NCBI GenBank assembly: GCA_022712315.1
Contig: JALAGS010000069.1
Location: 46,511 to 110,510, forward strand
Direction of reading: 5' to 3'
Source: Sphingobacterium sp.
GTDB lineage: Bacteria > Bacteroidota > Bacteroidia > Sphingobacteriales > Sphingobacteriaceae
DNA length: 64,000 bases
This document shows positions 7,414-47,652 of the stretch, in pieces (positions within the stretch are counted from its first letter, which is position 1; each line of letters begins with the position of its first letter). Position numbers and translations under genes: made by a program. The notes under the pieces were generated by a model, which ran no database searches, was not told where the DNA came from, and saw only the letters and a list, made by a program, of their open reading frames with translations.

Positions 7414-8313
<900 letters not shown>

Positions 8314-19460: not shown

Positions 19461-22400
19461 TTAAAATGTAATGTTTGCACCTAGATTAAACCGCTTTACA
19501 GTAGGGTAGGCTCCCTGTGAAGCCCAGCCTGTACCGGCGTAATTGGATTCACGGTCATCCGGCATTTTGGACCAGAAAACTAAGTTGTTTCCATTGAGGA
19601 ATACGCGAAGATTTTGAAGGCCCATGCGTTTGATGATGCTGGATTCCCGGTTAAAATTGTAAGCAATTTCGGCTGTTTTCAGGCGGATGTATGAACCATC
19701 AAACATATATCGACTACCGGGTGTATACGTGCTCGATTGCGATAGCCAGCGAGGCAGTGGCACATCGGCATTGACATTGTCTTTTGACCAATAGGAACCT
19801 TCGTCGTAAGCCAGGTTTAACTGGCCAGAAAAGCTGTTGAAAACAACCTGACGGGTGACATTATTGACGGCATACCATTGTGTCATGATACTAAAATTCT
19901 TCCAGTCGAACCCAATCGTACAATTGTATGTGTTTTGTGGAACCGAAGGAAAGGCGTAAGGGATATTATCCTTAGCATCGATAATACCGTCCCCGTTATA
20001 ATCGAGTATATGATAATTGCCGGGTAGTTTGGCTAGATCATTACTTTCGTGCGCAGTACTCGAATAAAGTTCGTCCCAGGTATTATAGTAGCCTGCACTG
20101 ACGTACGAGTAAGTCTGATTGACCTGTTTATTGTCTGGTTTTTGGTACTCGGGGAGCAATTCGGGAGCATCGGCATTGATGACTTTATCCTTGGCGTGGG
20201 TAAAGTTGATATCGGCCCATATTCTCGAGTCGATATTGAGCTTTCTGTTGAATTTTAGCTCAACCTCAAATCCTTTGTTTTGAACTTTGCCGAGGTTGGC
20301 TGTTGGTGCCTCCATCCCAAAATAGGAAGGGATGGCTCTATTGGCGCCGCTGATGAGAACATCTGTCCGCCGGTCCCTAAAAAAGTCGACCTTACCGCTT
20401 ATCTGGCTATTGAATAGACCGAAATCGAGTCCGACATTGAATTTGTTGACTTTTTCCCAACGGATATTTGGATTACCGAGCGCACTTTCCTTGTACCAGA
20501 CATAGGGGCTGGTATTGCCGTCGGAATAGGAGAATCGCCCCTCAACGCCCATGCCGGCGGTGCCGCCATAAGCCCATTGGGTTAGATATAGAAATTGCCG
20601 CCCACCACTATCGTCACCGATGTCACCGTAAGAAGCACGGAGCTTAAGCATATTCAAAAATGAAACCGGCTTCATAAACTCTTCTTCACTGACTAACCAG
20701 CCTAGACCTCCTGAGTTGAAAAAGGCAAATCTGTTATCAGGACCGAATTTCTCTGATCCTGTATAGGCGCCATTATACTCGAGCATATACTTGTTTTTGT
20801 AATTATAGGTTGTCCGGAATACCCAGTCCTCACGATAGGAGGGGATCATACTTCCTGTACCGGTTTGATTGCGGTTGAAAAGTCCCATGGCAGTAATGTT
20901 GTGGTCTTTGCCAAGGGTGGTCGCGTAGTTTAATTGCAATTGATAGAAGAGTCTTCTGTAGGTGGACCAATCCCTGACTTGTCCGGCGCCGGTTGTCCAG
21001 TTTATACCTTCGACAAAATCAAATCTGTTGGTGCCATCGAATGCAATCTGGTAGGTTGGCAGTCCGGTATTGGGATCTATCCATTTACTTTGTGTGCTAT
21101 TGTTGGCGTCATTGATACCCCGGCCACCTTCGACAAAGGTATTATCCAGTGAGATCGTTCCGCGAACGTTGAGGCCCTTCGCTAAAAACTTGAGATCTTG
21201 CTCAAGTGTAAAATCCGTCGTAATACGGCTTGTGGTTACATATTCAGTACCGCTGATCGCCAGCACGCGGGCAGAGTTTATTCCTGCTTGCGTGTTTAAC
21301 GCATAGTAGCCCCATGTTCCATCTGCGTAACGTGGATAGATAACGTCAGGAGCTACGGTATAGGCCGCGATCCAATACGAATAATCGTTGCCACCGCCCC
21401 ATGGGCTTTTTTTGACACCGCGGGATCCTGCCAGGTTGGTGGAGAATTTAGTTGTGGGGGTGAGCTGGAAATCCAGATTGGAACGTACATTCAGACGGTT
21501 AAATCCGTAACCGGCTTTGTATCCGCGTGCATTTTCGAATTGACGGAACATATCGCCTTCGTAAAGAAAATCTGCATTGGCAAAATACTTGACAAAGGGT
21601 GTACCACCGGCAATATTGACGCTGCTATTTTGTGAAAAGGCTTGGCTCTTAAATAATTCTTTTGCCCAGTCCGTATTTACATAGCGTTCGCGTTCTGTCT
21701 GGTCAGCAGGAAAACGGTATTTGTTGATGATATCCTGTGGAAGATAGTTGGCCCAGCTGGCAGGTGAGATGCCTAATTCATTTTCGATAACCTTGTTGCG
21801 TAACATTAGGGCATCGTATGAATCCATTTTACCGGGAAGCTGCGAAACAGTTTTGATGATATTGTTGACAGTACCACGTATCAGCATATGCCCTTCCATA
21901 CCCCGCTTGGTGGTGATTAAGATTACACCATTGGCTCCTCTTACGCCATAAACAGCAGTTGCTGATGCGTCTTTGAGTACTGAGATGGTTTCAATGGAAC
22001 TGATATCAACGGCAGATAGCGGCCTTTCCACACCATCAACCATGACTAAAGGATCGGTATTATTCCAGGTACTGCGTCCGCGGATTACAATACGGGGATC
22101 TTCTTCACCGGGCATTCCGGTACTTGCTGTGGTTATCACTCCCGGCACGTTGCCCGTCAGCGCAGCCCCTACACTCGAAACACCTCCAGCACGCTCTAAA
22201 ACTTTGCCTGAAGTCTGGGCGATGGCTCCAACGACGGTTTCTTTTTTCTGACGGCCATAACCGACAACAATTGTTTCTTCGATTTCAATTGATTTGTCGA
22301 TTAGCTGTATCTCTACGGTATTCTTATTGTTGATGTCGACTTCAACTTGTCCATACCCGAGCTTGGAAATGGTCAATAAGTTTTTATCCGCAGGTACTTG

Positions 22401-22643
22401 AAGGGTGAAATTGCCGTTGTCGTCACTAGCTGTAGCCAATGAAGTACCCTTTATCTTAATGGACGCGCCAGCGATCTTTTTATGGTTGCTATCGACTACA
22501 ATACCTCTTACCTGTCTTTTGGTCTGAGCATGTAGTGTGGACTGTCCCATATAGATTAGGAACAGCAGTAAAGTAAATGGCTTAGCTATACCCCATAGCT
22601 TTTTCCAATGCCTTACTAGTGTGATTGTAAATGTAATCATCAT
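19461..22643 (-). CDS. xusA: SusC/RagA TonB-linked outer-membrane transporter (first pair, XusA-like)
   Basis: Full-length SusC of 1060 residues and first gene of the minus-strand xylan operon. Order of parts: signal (hydrophobic 21-33, TLHAQ cleavage near 40), carboxypeptidase-regulatory-like beta-sandwich at about 44-115 (VRGIVVDSNHKKIAGASIKI), the IEETIVVGYGRQKK TonB-interaction segment near 121-134, plug to about 255 (VMVDGVERPLSAVD, ISVLKDASATAVYGVRGANG), then the barrel, ending FNLGANITF. With SusD-1 it should import xylan oligosaccharides using TonB energy. The ATG at 22643 is the only plausible start. A promoter-like element with a 21-bp-spaced direct repeat lies about 250-320 bp upstream, leaving a long leader. 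Confidence 0.94.
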   Translation of the reverse strand: MMITFTITLVRHWKKLWGIAKPFTLLLFLIYMGQSTLHAQTKRQVRGIVVDSNHKKIAGASIKIKGTSLATASDDNGNFTLQVPADKNLLTISKLGYGQVEVDINNKNTVEIQLIDKSIEIEETIVVGYGRQKKETVVGAIAQTSGKVLERAGGVSSVGAALTGNVPGVITTASTGMPGEEDPRIVIRGRSTWNNTDPLVMVDGVERPLSAVDISSIETISVLKDASATAVYGVRGANGVILITTKRGMEGHMLIRGTVNNIIKTVSQLPGKMDSYDALMLRNKVIENELGISPASWANYLPQDIINKYRFPADQTERERYVNTDWAKELFKSQAFSQNSSVNIAGGTPFVKYFANADFLYEGDMFRQFENARGYKAGYGFNRLNVRSNLDFQLTPTTKFSTNLAGSRGVKKSPWGGGNDYSYWIAAYTVAPDVIYPRYADGTWGYYALNTQAGINSARVLAISGTEYVTTSRITTDFTLEQDLKFLAKGLNVRGTISLDNTFVEGGRGINDANNSTQSKWIDPNTGLPTYQIAFDGTNRFDFVEGINWTTGAGQVRDWSTYRRLFYQLQLNYATTLGKDHNITAMGLFNRNQTGTGSMIPSYREDWVFRTTYNYKNKYMLEYNGAYTGSEKFGPDNRFAFFNSGGLGWLVSEEEFMKPVSFLNMLKLRASYGDIGDDSGGRQFLYLTQWAYGGTAGMGVEGRFSYSDGNTSPYVWYKESALGNPNIRWEKVNKFNVGLDFGLFNSQISGKVDFFRDRRTDVLISGANRAIPSYFGMEAPTANLGKVQNKGFEVELKFNRKLNIDSRIWADINFTHAKDKVINADAPELLPEYQKPDNKQVNQTYSYVSAGYYNTWDELYSSTAHESNDLAKLPGNYHILDYNGDGIIDAKDNIPYAFPSVPQNTYNCTIGFDWKNFSIMTQWYAVNNVTRQVVFNSFSGQLNLAYDEGSYWSKDNVNADVPLPRWLSQSSTYTPGSRYMFDGSYIRLKTAEIAYNFNRESSIIKRMGLQNLRVFLNGNNLVFWSKMPDDRESNYAGTGWASQGAYPTVKRFNLGANITF

Positions 22644-22896: not shown

Positions 22897-22960
22897 CAAA
22901 GCTAGCCAATGTAAATTTTGACGGATAGCAAGAATGTTTAAATGAAGGATAAGAATGTCA
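22897..22960 (-). promoter_or_regulatory. Putative regulated promoter of the SusC-SusD-GH10-GH5 operon
   Basis: Read on the minus strand: distal half-site TGACATTCTTATCCT (22960-22946), proximal half-site AAACATTCTTGCTAT (22939-22925), start-to-start distance 21 bp, then 20 bp to TAGCTTTG (22904-22897), an exact TAnnTTTG -7 box. The same arrangement occurs before the transaldolase and symporter genes. The expected start site is near 22892, giving a leader of about 250 bases. The proposed activator is the hybrid regulator at 23079. Confidence 0.62.
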
Positions 22961-23078: not shown

Positions 23079-26000
23079 ATGATACGCATTTTACTGGCAT
23101 TAAGCTGGATGTTGCTGACGTTTTTTTCGTACGGGCAAAATCATCCTGTAACATTTCAGCGCTATTCTTCAAAAGATGGACTTTCCTCCAATACGATCTA
23201 TAGTATCTATCGAGATAGCTATGGTTTTCTTTGGTTGGGCACAGAAGATGGACTGAACCGCTTCGATGGGCGTCGGTATAATGTCTATCGATATGATGCC
23301 AACCAAGAGAATAGTTTAATGGCCAATCATATTTCGGCTCTGTGTGAAGACAAGAAGGGAAGAATTTGGATTGGTACTAATGGCGGTGGATTGAGTTATT
23401 ATGATCGTGAAGCAGACCGCATCCGTTCGTATAATCTTACACCTGATGGGAAATGGCTCAGTACCGCAATTAATGCTATCGATACGGATGCCAATGGAAA
23501 TATTTGGGTCGCTTCCTATGGTGCTTTGTATATACTGGATGTCAATAATCTACAAAAGAAAATGGATCCAACCTATCGGCGTATCGTGGAAACTTTTGCC
23601 GACAAAGTGACGAGCTGTGTATTTCGCGATCGGCAAAACAATATGTGGGTATCCTCAGAGAATGGAATATTCCGTCTCTCGGCAGACTTCAAAACAATAA
23701 AACGTTTTGAAGTCCTATCGGAACAGGAAGGATATGGGAACGGGATTGAAGTCAGCTCCATTGTTGAAGATGATAAGGGTCGGATCTGGATCGGTTCTAT
23801 GCTGGGACTTAAATACCTCAGTCCTGGCGATTCTCAGTTCAATAAGTTTATTGCGAAGGACGGGAATGGGGCTTTAAGCAGTCCCCGGATTTATACCTTG
23901 TGCCACAATCAAAAGCAGGATCTATGGATTGGAACGGACAATGGTTTGGATGTACTTAATACCAATAATTTTACAGTTCGCACCTTTAAGCCTGATCCAA
24001 GTAATGTGCATAGTCTTTCTCACAAATCGATACGGTCTATTTTTGTAGATAATAGCGGAATTTACTGGATAGGTACTTTTCAGGGAGGATTGAATAAATT
24101 CGACACCAATTTAAGTCAATTTAGATTAAAAAGCCTGGATTTTCTAGAAGGAATGACCGGCGATCCGGCCATAGTAACCTCGTTTGCGGCCTATCAAAAT
24201 AAGATTTTTTTAGGCGTCGACGGTGGCGGTGTCTGGAAATACGACAGGGAGACTGATCGATTATCATCCGTCAGCCTTTCTGTCAATCTACCCAGAGATC
24301 TAACGGTGCTCACTTTGGAAAGAAAGCTCGATCAGCTTTGGATCGGGACGTATCAGCAAGGCGTCATTTGTTATGACCTCCTTAACGGAAATTTAAAAAG
24401 GTACATTGTTGGCAACAAAGAAGATAATCTAAATAATAACGATATTTTTTGTTTAAAAGTTGACTTTAAGGGAAATACATGGGTTGGGACCAATGGAGGA
24501 GGTGTTAACATCATTCAAAAAGGGAGTGGAATTGTCAAGAAGTATAAGCGGGATGATCACTTAGGCGATGGAATCCAGGTGCCGGGGAATTTTATACGGG
24601 CGCTGGCGGAAGATCAGGAACAGCACATGTGGATCGGTACTTATGGCTCGGGATTAGTGATGTATGATCCTTTGACAAAACGGTCCAAAATTTTTGATAA
24701 GGCAAACAACAAGCTACCCAGCAATTATATATTAGCGATATATACAGATAAAAAAGGGGATTTATGGGTTGGAACCAATGGCAATGGGATAGGGTTGCTG
24801 CGAAAAGGGAAAGTAGTTTTTGAGACACTTTCTGAGAAGGACGGACTGGCTAATGGTGCTATCCAGAGTATTGTCGAAGACGATAAGGGGCGGATTTGGT
24901 TTTCAACGAACAAAGGCTTGAGCTGTTATTCTCCGGCACAAAATAAGTTTAAAAATTATTCGAATGCTGTAGGGTTGCAAGAGGGCGCTTTTATGCTCGG
25001 TGCCTCGCTAAAAACGAGCGATGGAGAAATCTACTTTGGCGGTCAGAAGGGTTTTAATCATTTTTATCCAGCTCATTTAAAAACAAACAGTAATCCTGCT
25101 AAGGTTGCACTAACTGATCTAAAAATTGACAATGTGATTATTCAACCAGCGGAGAAAGGTCCAATACAGCAGTCTTTGTTGACCTCCGATCGTATCGAAC
25201 TAAAATATAAACAGAATTTTTCAATTTCTTTTGCTGCACTAAACCTCACTGTACCGGAGGATAACCAATATGAGTACCGTCTTGTCGGTTTTGATAAAAA
25301 CTGGATTCGCAACGGAAAAGAAAATAGTGCCTATTACACCAATCTGGATCCCGGAGATTATGTCTTTGAGGTACGTGCGAGTAACAACGACGGGATTTGG
25401 AACAAGGAAATCAAATCGATTGCTATATATGTTGCTCCACCGTTTTGGCGCACGATTTATGCTTATCTATTTTATGTGATCGCAGTCGTGGGGGTACTTC
25501 TATGGATGAGACATCGTGGGATTGAAAAGCTAAAGCAAAAATTTGCGATTGAGCAGGAGCGTACCCAGGCGAAACAGCTCATTGAACAACAAAAAAGAGA
25601 TGCTGAGACCAAACATCAGCTGGATGCGATGAAAATCAGGTTTTTAACCAATTTAAGTCATGAATTCCGCACGCCAATCTCGTTGATCATGGGACCGATA
25701 GATGCTTTGATTGCCAAAAATAAAGATAGCAAACTCGGTGATCAGCTTAATTTGATCAGTCGTAATGCGCGCCGGCTTTTAAATCTGGTCAACCAGTTGC
25801 TTGATTTTCGTAAGATGGAGTATCACGAACTCAAGCTGCAGGATGAAGATGGTGAATTGGTCTCTTTTGTGCAGGAGGTATACCGCTCCTTTCAGGACAT
25901 GGCCTTGCAAAAAGGTATAGACTATTCTTTTTTCCCCTGTCAAGAAAAATTATATTGCCGTTTTGACCGCAATAAGGTGGAGCGCGTTTTATTTAATTTA

Positions 26001-27155
26001 ATCTATAACGCCTTTAAGTTTACGAAAAAGGATGGGGATATCGCCGTAAGTATATCATCTGTCAGTGCGGTTGACAAAAAGCTGCATGTTTACCTCGAAG
26101 TGCGAGATACCGGTATCGGGATTCCCGAGCAGTTGCAGCAATCGATATTTGAGAGTTTCTTTCAGTATGATAATGATGGTAAGGTGGCTAGCCAAGGTTC
26201 AGGTATTGGACTCTCGATCGCTCAATCTTTTGTTCAGATGTATGATGGCGAAATCTCGGTGAGCAGTCAGCCTGCGAAAGGCAGTAGTTTTAAATTTGAT
26301 TTGTGGTTAGACCAGGCTGAGCCGGTATACGATGGGATACCTGAACAGGAAACTATCACGCTGGTGCAACCTGTGGAAGCTAGACAGAGCCCCTTGGTGC
26401 TGATTATCGAAGATGATGAAGACTTTAGGTATTATCTCAAAGAGTCCTTAAAAGAGCATTACCAGATTATTGAGGCGACCAATGGAAAAGATGGCTGGCA
26501 AAAGGCGCTTTTCCATCATCCCGACATTGTGGTGAGCGATGTACAGATGCCCTACCTAAATGGGATGGAATTTTCGCAGAAACTTGCACAGGATAAACGG
26601 ACGAAACACATTCCTGTGGTGTTGCTGACGGCTTCACAGGTCGATAATGGTCTTGTCTGTGGTCTAGAGTCCGGTGCCGTAGGCTACCTGACCAAGCCCT
26701 TTGATATGGATGTGCTGATTGCGAAGATAAATAGCTTGCTCCAGCTGAATCAGGCGTTTAAGGAAGTCTATAGCAAACAGGTTTCTATTTTACCTCCGGA
26801 ATTGACGATCAACTCCGAAAAGGACAAATTTCTACAGAAAGTGTTGAATTATGTTCACGATAATATTGATAATCCTCAATTATCGGTGGAGGCTTTGAGT
26901 GCGCATACGTCGATGAGCAGGGCCTCTTTATACAACAAGCTGCTGGAACTAACAGGCATGTCGCCTGTGGATTTTATTCGTTCAGTAAAACTGGAGAAAG
27001 CAGCGAGCCTATTGGAAAAAAGTGATAAGTCTATTTCTGAAATCGCTTATGAAACGGGGTTCGCTAATCCGAATTACTTTACAAAAGTTTTCAAAGCTAA
27101 ATATCAGATGACGCCGAGTGAATATATTCAGCTGCAAAAAAGCACTTCGGTGTAA
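23079..27155 (+). CDS. Hybrid two-component system sensor/regulator (HTCS) with AraC output domain
   Basis: One-protein signalling system of 1358 residues that should sense xylan oligosaccharides in the periplasm and switch on the surrounding operons. Order: signal peptide (1-20), two-component-propeller repeats (about 25-700; blades such as GLSSNTIYSIYRDSYGFLWL), Y_Y_Y domain (about 715-785), one membrane helix (about 790-808), coiled region, HisKA with phospho-acceptor His861 in SHEFRTP, HATPase (N box near 975, GTGIGIPEQ-type G box), receiver domain with phospho-acceptor Asp1154 in VVSDVQMP, and a C-terminal AraC double helix-turn-helix (about 1250-1355). All catalytic motifs look intact. 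It is transcribed away from the SusC operon and ends in a terminator at 27207. Confidence 0.96.
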   Translation: MIRILLALSWMLLTFFSYGQNHPVTFQRYSSKDGLSSNTIYSIYRDSYGFLWLGTEDGLNRFDGRRYNVYRYDANQENSLMANHISALCEDKKGRIWIGTNGGGLSYYDREADRIRSYNLTPDGKWLSTAINAIDTDANGNIWVASYGALYILDVNNLQKKMDPTYRRIVETFADKVTSCVFRDRQNNMWVSSENGIFRLSADFKTIKRFEVLSEQEGYGNGIEVSSIVEDDKGRIWIGSMLGLKYLSPGDSQFNKFIAKDGNGALSSPRIYTLCHNQKQDLWIGTDNGLDVLNTNNFTVRTFKPDPSNVHSLSHKSIRSIFVDNSGIYWIGTFQGGLNKFDTNLSQFRLKSLDFLEGMTGDPAIVTSFAAYQNKIFLGVDGGGVWKYDRETDRLSSVSLSVNLPRDLTVLTLERKLDQLWIGTYQQGVICYDLLNGNLKRYIVGNKEDNLNNNDIFCLKVDFKGNTWVGTNGGGVNIIQKGSGIVKKYKRDDHLGDGIQVPGNFIRALAEDQEQHMWIGTYGSGLVMYDPLTKRSKIFDKANNKLPSNYILAIYTDKKGDLWVGTNGNGIGLLRKGKVVFETLSEKDGLANGAIQSIVEDDKGRIWFSTNKGLSCYSPAQNKFKNYSNAVGLQEGAFMLGASLKTSDGEIYFGGQKGFNHFYPAHLKTNSNPAKVALTDLKIDNVIIQPAEKGPIQQSLLTSDRIELKYKQNFSISFAALNLTVPEDNQYEYRLVGFDKNWIRNGKENSAYYTNLDPGDYVFEVRASNNDGIWNKEIKSIAIYVAPPFWRTIYAYLFYVIAVVGVLLWMRHRGIEKLKQKFAIEQERTQAKQLIEQQKRDAETKHQLDAMKIRFLTNLSHEFRTPISLIMGPIDALIAKNKDSKLGDQLNLISRNARRLLNLVNQLLDFRKMEYHELKLQDEDGELVSFVQEVYRSFQDMALQKGIDYSFFPCQEKLYCRFDRNKVERVLFNLIYNAFKFTKKDGDIAVSISSVSAVDKKLHVYLEVRDTGIGIPEQLQQSIFESFFQYDNDGKVASQGSGIGLSIAQSFVQMYDGEISVSSQPAKGSSFKFDLWLDQAEPVYDGIPEQETITLVQPVEARQSPLVLIIEDDEDFRYYLKESLKEHYQIIEATNGKDGWQKALFHHPDIVVSDVQMPYLNGMEFSQKLAQDKRTKHIPVVLLTASQVDNGLVCGLESGAVGYLTKPFDMDVLIAKINSLLQLNQAFKEVYSKQVSILPPELTINSEKDKFLQKVLNYVHDNIDNPQLSVEALSAHTSMSRASLYNKLLELTGMSPVDFIRSVKLEKAASLLEKSDKSISEIAYETGFANPNYFTKVFKAKYQMTPSEYIQLQKSTSV

Positions 27156-27206: not shown

Positions 27207-27248
27207 GAAGGGTAATCTGTTTTAAACATTTTTACCCTTCTTTTTTTT
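27207..27248 (+). terminator. Intrinsic terminator after the hybrid regulator gene
   Basis: A 9-bp perfect stem (GAAGGGTAA with TTACCCTTC), 16-base loop, followed by eight T. It ends the regulator transcript. Its loop and right arm overlap the distal half-site of the downstream promoter, so the two signals share DNA. Confidence 0.82.
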
Positions 27249-27287
27249 ATTTGTTGCAACCGTATCTTGTTGAAAGCTATAGTTTTG
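27224..27287 (+). promoter_or_regulatory. Putative regulated promoter of the transaldolase-transketolase-GH operon
   Basis: Distal half-site AAACATTTTTACCCT at 27224-27238 and a degenerate proximal half-site TTTTATTTGTTGCAA at 27245-27259 (only ATTTGT matches), 21 bp apart. Twenty bases later comes TAGTTTTG (27280-27287), an exact TAnnTTTG box. There is no well-placed -33 TTG at 20 bp, as expected for an activator-dependent promoter. A 15-mer starting at 27220 recurs exactly at 40521, at nearly the same distance from that promoter's -7 box. Confidence 0.6.
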
Positions 27288-40524: not shown

Positions 40525-40589
40525 AAACATTTTTATTGGAATATAAAACATTTGTATCGGGTGCCGGCTAAAGTGGACTTGTAGTTTTA
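40525..40589 (+). promoter_or_regulatory. Putative regulated promoter of the symporter-GH10-GH43-GH67 operon with 21-bp direct repeat
   Basis: AAACATTTTTATTGG (40525-40539) and AAACATTTGTATCGG (40546-40560) match at 13 of 15 positions and start exactly 21 bp apart, two turns of the helix on the same face. Twenty-one bases later comes TAGTTTTA (40582-40589), one base off TAnnTTTG. No -33 TTG is present, and the proximal half-site covers that position, as for an AraC-type activator that contacts the polymerase. Proposed binder: the regulator at 23079. Confidence 0.68.
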
Positions 40590-46288: not shown

Positions 46289-47155
46289 TTATCTGGGAAT
46301 TCTTCGTTTATAGGCCATGGGAGTTTCGCCTGTTATTTTTTTGAACAATCTATTAAAGTAGGATATGTTTTCGAAGCCCAATTTGAAGCTGAGCTGTTGA
46401 ATATTGTCTTCATCGACAAGCATCATCAATTGTGCTTTTTCGATTTTCTTCTGATTGATATAAAGCACTGGCGTCGTATTCATCTGTTTTTTAAATAGCC
46501 GGATCAGGTGATCTTTGGAAATAAAGATCAAATTGGCAAGCTGCTCGATGGAAATCGGTTGATGGATATTTTCGTCTATGTAATCGAGTACGCGCAGCAG
46601 GCGTTTTTCTCCATGCGGAATTTTATTGATTGCTTCCGCCAAAAATCGGCTCATCAGTAAATGGATAATAGCTTGGTTTTCGGATGCCCGGGCGAAAGGA
46701 AAAGCTGTCTGTAGCGCCATGTTTTTCATTAATTCTGTCGAGTTGTCGTAGCTCTTAGGATCATAAATTGTCAGCTCGCGCTCTGGATTTATGCCATATA
46801 GATGTTGAATGAGTGTTTCCAATAAAGGGTCAGATTTGATTTCCTTCGGAAAGGCATAGCGGTCAAAAATACTCGATCTTAGCTCGGGGTTTTCATAGAT
46901 ATGGATATAATAGAGCGAAAATTTTGCTGAACAGGCATAGCTATGCTGGACGTAGGCAGGTGTAAGGTAAAGGTGGCCGGGCTGAAGTTTAATGACTTCG
47001 TCCTGCAAAATAATAGAGGCTTCTCCTTCACAGACATAATGTATTCGGGCAAATGGACTCTTGATATCTTTAAAATTCCAATCTGCCTGATGTTCTGCAT
47101 AGCCAACATTCAATAGTGTAAAATCGAGTTTATTCTTTTCGTTGTTTATTATCAT
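46289..47155 (-). CDS. AraC-family transcriptional regulator with cupin-like N-terminus
   Basis: Regulator of 288 residues from the chosen start. N-terminal cupin-like sensing domain (ARIHYVCEGEASIIL, QPGHLYLTPAYVQHSY) and C-terminal double helix-turn-helix (about 185-288; SIEQLANLIFISKDHLIRLFKK and the GFENISYFNRLFKK signature). The track start at 47251 adds 32 residues with an odd hydrophobic run. ATG 47155 (MIINNEKNKLDF) matches the usual opening of related proteins, and ATG 47197 is also possible. It converges on the GH67 gene and diverges from the zinc dehydrogenase, so either could be its target. The inducer is unknown, probably a sugar. Confidence 0.85.
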   Translation of the reverse strand: MIINNEKNKLDFTLLNVGYAEHQADWNFKDIKSPFARIHYVCEGEASIILQDEVIKLQPGHLYLTPAYVQHSYACSAKFSLYYIHIYENPELRSSIFDRYAFPKEIKSDPLLETLIQHLYGINPERELTIYDPKSYDNSTELMKNMALQTAFPFARASENQAIIHLLMSRFLAEAINKIPHGEKRLLRVLDYIDENIHQPISIEQLANLIFISKDHLIRLFKKQMNTTPVLYINQKKIEKAQLMMLVDEDNIQQLSFKLGFENISYFNRLFKKITGETPMAYKRRIPR

Positions 47156-47652
47156 TCGAAGAGGAGCATAGTACAATACAATATAAATTGTTTTCATTAA
47201 AAAAATGGTTTTTTTTAATGCGAATATCGATAATGTGACTGTTTGGCTCAATCAGGTAACCAGTATAGGACTATTTAAACCCTTTTTGAAATAATAGACT
47301 AAATCTTGCTTTTTACAGGGGCGATGAAGCTGTAAATTGAGCTATTTGCATCCTGCAGCTATTTTACAAATGTTTATCTGTATATAAAACGACGCAGCTG
47401 ATCGGTAAGAATCTATGCTAATGAAGGTTTTTTTTGAAAAGAGACCTTGCAAGAATGCTGTAGGGAACATGTCGATATTGTATTATTTTTGATCGTTAAT
47501 GTAGTTTCTTTCTCCCTTATATCCAATTATTTTTGGCTAATCGTTAAGATCAAAAAGAGGGAAATGGGAAGCCTCTTGATTTCTTATATTATCTTTGATA
47601 TCATTCTGAACGATAAGAGTAATAACTGTTTAAATCTTGGTACCCGATATAC
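47156..47652. other. Divergent intergenic region between AraC gene and zinc dehydrogenase
   Basis: About 500 bp without a credible gene. A minus-strand AAACATTTGTAAAAT at 47375-47361 matches the proposed regulator half-site over 11 bases, but no clear partner at 21 bp and no exact -7 box at the right distance were found. The track ORF at 47447-47656 runs into the dehydrogenase start and has no family features. Confidence 0.6.

Follow-up and report, generated by a model that had tools for sequence, protein, structure and literature searches.

Organization of the locus

The features of the window, by which we mean the whole stretch of 64,000 nucleotides that was analysed, are collected in Table 1. 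The susC gene is the first gene of an operon which extends on the minus strand to about position 7414, and it is followed there by genes for two SusD proteins, a second SusC, a GH10 enzyme, a GH5-like enzyme and an esterase, as assigned by Pfam. This combination of SusC/SusD, GH10, GH5-like and esterase genes identifies the region as a xylan utilisation locus. The divergent HTCS gene codes for a protein of 1358 residues, whose closest named relatives belong to Sphingobacterium species. A periplasmic propeller, a kinase, a receiver and an AraC-type HTH are all present in it, and its position beside susC/susD is one of the features by which HTCS promoters are recognised. The two divergent genes are separated by a gap of 435 bp, and the repeat pair described below is located inside this gap.

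Table 1. Positions of genes and regulatory elements in the window (distances with a sign are relative to the predicted transcript start)
Feature	Positions	Strand	Remarks
SusC/RagA TonB-linked receptor (susC)	19461-22643	-	NCBIfam TIGR04056, 741 bits; Pfam
HTCS regulator, divergent	23079-27155	+	Pfam: Reg_prop, Y_Y_Y, HisKA, HATPase_c, Response_reg, HTH_18
Distal half-site TGACATTCTTATCCT	22960-22946	-	about -70 to -56; 11 of 15 columns invariant in 17 close genomes
Proximal half-site AAACATTCTTGCTAT	22939-22925	-	about -49 to -35; 14 of 15 columns invariant in 17 close genomes
-7 box TAGCTTTG	22904-22897	-	fits Bacteroidetes TAnnTTTG; 20 bp after AAACATTCTTGCTAT
Conserved ACAATTATAAAC at predicted transcript start	22891-22880	-	invariant or nearly so in 17 close genomes
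LacI-type palindrome GCAACCGGTTGC, 12 bp	22834-22823	-	about +57 to +68 in the predicted leader; candidate XylR operator
Third promoter, AAACATTTTTACCCT / TTTTATTTGTTGCAA	27224-27259	+	weight-matrix match; before the transaldolase-transketolase-GH95-GH43 operon
Box of the third promoter, TAGTTTTG	27280-27287	+	20 bp from the repeat
Second promoter, AAACATTTTTATTGG / AAACATTTGTATCGG	40525-40560	+	before the GPH symporter-GH10-GH43-GH67 operon
Box of the second promoter, TAGTTTTA	40582-40589	+	21 bp after the repeat pair
Stand-alone AraC-family protein	46289-47251		encoded beside the gph operon

The repeat pair and the promoter before susC

The two half-sites form a direct repeat with a period of 21, in line with the period of about 21 bp typical of HTCS promoters, and the 6 bp between them read TCATTT on the minus strand. 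A first-pass annotation of this DNA had described paired half-sites exactly 21 bp apart, standing 20 bp before an exact -7 box, and these coordinates, sequences and spacings are confirmed. The box has the TAnnTTTG form of the -7 element in Bacteroidetes primary-sigma promoters, which is also the consensus determined for B. fragilis (PMC7366714). A TTTG near -33 was sought before susC and is absent as a conserved element, and the 20-bp spacer has a mean identity of 0.71 in the 17 close loci. An unconserved spacer and the lack of a -33 element are expected of an activator-dependent promoter.

The position of the -7 box places the predicted start of the susC transcript at about 22890, about 247 nt before the ATG at 22643, in agreement with the earlier estimate of about 250 bases. 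A conserved element is located at this predicted start: its part ATTATAAA is kept in all 29 orthologous loci, and the whole word ACAATTATAAAC in nearly all of them. The word was also considered as a general promoter feature and rejected, with 6 matches in the genome against 4 for the control. It is found in addition downstream of the 27224-type promoter in loci L024-L026 and L028. Comparison of the susC leader with Rfam gave no match.

Conservation of the repeat pair

A search for the HTCS in 94 Sphingobacterium genomes gave 33 orthologues with 50-100% identity, after which the next match drops to 38%. Thirty loci were compared; 29 of these have the HTCS-susC upstream region, and 17 loci, the window included, are close. 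In the 16 other close genomes the 36-bp repeat block has a mean identity to the window of 98.6%, compared with an intergenic median of 73%, and in the set of 29 the corresponding values are about 90% and 60%. When all 36-bp windows of the gap are taken in turn, the repeat is level with the best of them, one-base shifts aside, in both the close and the full sets. In the 17 close loci both half-sites and the intervening 6 bp are nearly invariant, with values of 0.97, 1.00 and 1.00, in contrast to the low value of the spacer. An upstream repeat conserved in 29 orthologous loci is a further feature of HTCS promoters, and in all 29 the repeat adjoins the HTCS gene.

The -7 box is conserved as well, with seven of its eight columns invariant in the 17 close loci. 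Over the 29 loci it reads TAGC, TAGT, TAAC, TATC or TACC followed by TTTG, so that changes are confined to the nn positions in 26 orthologues, while three distant genomes have one further mismatch (TACTTTCG or TACCTTAG). The gap between half-site and box is 20 in 25 of the 26 loci with an intact box and 21 in the remaining one; the sequence of the spacer varies and its length is constant. Conserved half-sites with rigid spacing to the box are the pattern expected of protein-binding half-sites joined to a promoter.

It is important to consider whether the repeat before susC could be a chance resemblance, found by a reader who was looking for it. Two copies of the core pair ACATTNNT-N13-ACATTNNT are present in the window, at the susC site and at 40525, and at other spacings from 12 to 40 none was found in the window. 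Markov resampling of the window, repeated 300 times, gave 0.023 pairs on average and in no case two, a figure that flatters the motif because the core was picked after both sites had been seen. Genome-wide, where sequence patterns were searched with the reversed pattern as control, the bare core pair gave 6 matches against 4 for the control. This near-chance count is the point in favour of coincidence; it makes the motif alone unfit for regulon prediction, and similarity alone would not settle whether the site is real. Conservation does, since the 36 bp are near-invariant in 17 genomes and persist in loci whose HTCS has only 57-64% identity. Together with the resampling result, this leaves chance with practically no probability, and we reject it.

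Two further promoters of the same design

The first-pass annotation had compared the susC site with the one at 40525. The paired geometry is indeed common to both, but the shared core is AACATTnnT and not ACATTCTT. Two further corrections concern 40525: the box there is TAGTTTTA instead of TAnnTTTG, and the gap is 21 instead of 20. The 40525 site is conserved too, as all 12 close loci keep it and so do three distant loci (G055, G024 and G039). Some genomes have the symporter gene at the head of a unit of its own. Of these, the 15 that carry the HTCS orthologue all have a 40525-type site, and the three that lack the orthologue (G006, G027 and G017) have none; these counts follow a few clades and are not independent events. 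Where the symporter gene is internal to an operon, the site is absent.

The third promoter, at 27224, had been missed, as had the LacI-type palindrome in the leader. It precedes genes for a transaldolase, a transketolase, an esterase, GH95 and GH43, and it is nearly invariant in the 17 close genomes, with a gap of 20 in 22 of 23 matched loci. With one geometry at susC, 40525 and 27224, the promoters of the xylan locus are built alike in three of three operons. One point against the reading that all three share one HTCS is that the 27224 promoter has a degenerate second half-site.

Pairs of this kind were also observed elsewhere. Two Mucilaginibacter genomes and one Bacteroidetes MAG have AACATTTGT pairs with a period of 21 (L152 2587, L157 2599 and L176 2732) upstream of the HTCS gene itself, with TAACTTTA 20 bp downstream in L152 and L157. 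This arrangement suggests autoregulation of the HTCS in those genomes.

The putative regulator

The proposal that these are paired activator half-sites of the 40525 type before a -7 box is supported by the footprint in 29 loci, by the parallel conservation at 40525 and by a published class of HTCS sites with 21-bp spacing (PMC3878776). For 16 HTCSs of B. thetaiotaomicron, direct repeats averaging 21 bp apart were reported, and binding of dimers to one face of the DNA was inferred (Ravcheev et al. 2013, PMC3878776). The present site has in common with those motifs a direct repeat of two sites at about 21 bp, upstream of susC/susD and beside the HTCS gene, and also the occurrence of the same motif at several operons of one locus. 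It differs in belonging to the genus Sphingobacterium and in its half-site, AACATTnnT; the main text of that study lists no motif for a xylan HTCS. Judged from sequence, the susC repeat site is real and biologically meaningful, and it falls in this known class of HTCS regulatory sites.

In class II sites of the AraC/XylS family, such as araI1-I2 of E. coli, two helical turns separate the direct half-sites, and the proximal half-site borders the -35 region. The susC half-sites have the same arrangement. However, the regulator here is a membrane HTCS, and the promoter is TAnnTTTG without a recognisable -33 element.

These observations allow us to propose, with considerable confidence, that the half-sites are the binding site of the divergent HTCS, which would activate susC in the class II manner and probably control the three operons as one xylan regulon. 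This reading is based on the observed sequence, geometry, conservation, gene context and co-occurrence, from which we infer binding, phosphorylation, ligand and start site. Xylo-oligosaccharides would meet the periplasmic sensor and the HTCS would then phosphorylate its own receiver domain. The AraC-type DNA-binding domains of the dimeric protein would occupy the two half-sites, where the spacing of two helical turns puts both direct repeats on the same face of the helix. Since the proximal half-site ends near -35, the bound regulator would take the place of the -33 element and recruit RNA polymerase with the primary sigma factor to TAnnTTTG. The same HTCS probably serves the gph operon and the transaldolase operon, making one regulon of the three.

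Receiver-DNA-binding fragments of HTCSs bind promoters of susC homologues in vitro and are held back without phosphorylation (PMC11253607). According to the same study, S or C precedes HIP in the alpha3-beta4 loop of the receiver in about 84% of HTCSs, and departure from S/CHIP is accompanied by a loss of this inhibition at the level of structural arrangement (PMC11253607). The HTCS described here has KHIP in this loop, as do all 28 readable orthologues. Some basal binding of DNA by this protein is possible, as the replacement of S/CHIP by KHIP would allow it.

Two other proteins might be considered as the binder. The stand-alone AraC-family protein of Table 1 has an AraC ligand-binding domain together with both HTH motifs. 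Direct repeats with a spacing of about 21 bp are bound by AraC proteins too, which would suit it, from its place beside the gph operon, for both the susC site and 40525. However, three genomes (G057, G066 and G073) keep both sites and have no match to this protein at E <= 1e-60, and the best match to it in G062 and in G007 is a weaker one, with 72% identity, that is located elsewhere. The persistence of the 40525 site in genomes without a local AraC gene points to the HTCS, and the presence of the HTCS gene beside the susC site in 29 of 29 loci argues in the same direction. We consider binding by the AraC-family protein very improbable and reject it.

Recognition or cross-regulation of the sites by a paralogous HTCS, for example one encoded on this contig at a distance of about 37 kb, is unlikely, though somewhat less so. 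HTCS paralogues are abundant, with 6 matches scored at E <= 1e-100 in this genome, and one of them could bind. In addition, a near-copy of the 27224 promoter (L076, about 1735-1804) precedes a second susC on the same contig, near a paralogous HTCS gene (C24:31601). Against this, the susC site goes with the adjacent HTCS throughout the 29 loci, and the half-site it has is not the L076/27224 version. The divergent HTCS is preferred over both.

A LacI-type palindrome in the predicted leader

The palindrome in the predicted leader is kept in the 17 close loci, in one of them with a single change, at 122-125 bp from half-site 1. Exact copies of GCAACCGGTTGC number 4 in the genome, compared with 0 for the reversed control, and one of them is located between a LacI-family gene and a xylulokinase gene. 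The latter matches XylB with 296 bits, below the curated cut-off of 380. The region between these two genes contains an identical 14-mer in 17 of 17 close genomes. The palindrome TGCAAnCGnTTGCA, which has the form of a LacI operator, is exact in this gap and has one outer mismatch in the susC leader.

A LacI orthologue (E <= 1e-80) is present in 22 of the 30 genomes and lacking in eight. Of the 21 testable LacI-positive loci, 20 have the leader palindrome (TGCAAnCGnTTGCA, one change being allowed), compared with none of the eight LacI-negative ones (Fisher P 2e-6, ignoring relatedness). In three distant LacI-positive loci it has the form TGCAATCGCTTGCA and is located farther downstream; genome G026 has the LacI gene and no leader palindrome.

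LacI-type operators with a central CG are known for regulators of the PurR, RbsR and CcpA type. The palindrome TGCAAnCGnTTGCA is like them, also in its position upstream of a LacI-family gene, here beside xylulokinase. In contrast to them, one copy here forms part of the leader predicted for a susC operon under HTCS activation. In the B. thetaiotaomicron study, xylose control was reported for an XylR of the NrtR type, not the LacI type (PMC3878776), and a literature search of partial coverage found no description of a LacI-type xylose regulator in Sphingobacterium.

The LacI protein encoded beside xylulokinase probably binds the leader palindrome and would block elongation or initiation until xylose is present. 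In the simplest interpretation, a LacI repressor that responds to xylose and acts at a downstream operator would form an AND gate with the HTCS. We regard such a LacI-family brake on susC as somewhat better than an even proposition, its ligand and sign of action being suggested by gene context only. The chances are evenly balanced for the fuller scheme of two-key control, in which activation by the HTCS in response to periplasmic xylo-oligosaccharides would be joined to a downstream LacI-type xylose roadblock, with the operator common to the xylulokinase promoter and other operons (GH43/GH95, possibly GH3-susC and GH31). If it holds, outer-membrane uptake would also require the presence of xylose in the cytoplasm.

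LacI-type palindromes were also observed near GH3/susC, GH31, GH43/GH95 and GMC oxidoreductase genes (L080, L082, L068 and L069, all 1501), among them near-matches before another susC with GH3 (L080 1501) and before a GH31 gene (L082 1501). A wider xylose-linked LacI regulon is possible.

Implications

For a xylan HTCS from outside Bacteroides, the repeat pair provides a concrete and testable candidate for the binding site and for the transcript start, and one promoter geometry is common to all three operons of the xylan locus. The putative LacI-type operator in the leader is the new and less expected part. A second, monosaccharide-linked layer of control in the leader would tie polysaccharide uptake to pentose catabolism.
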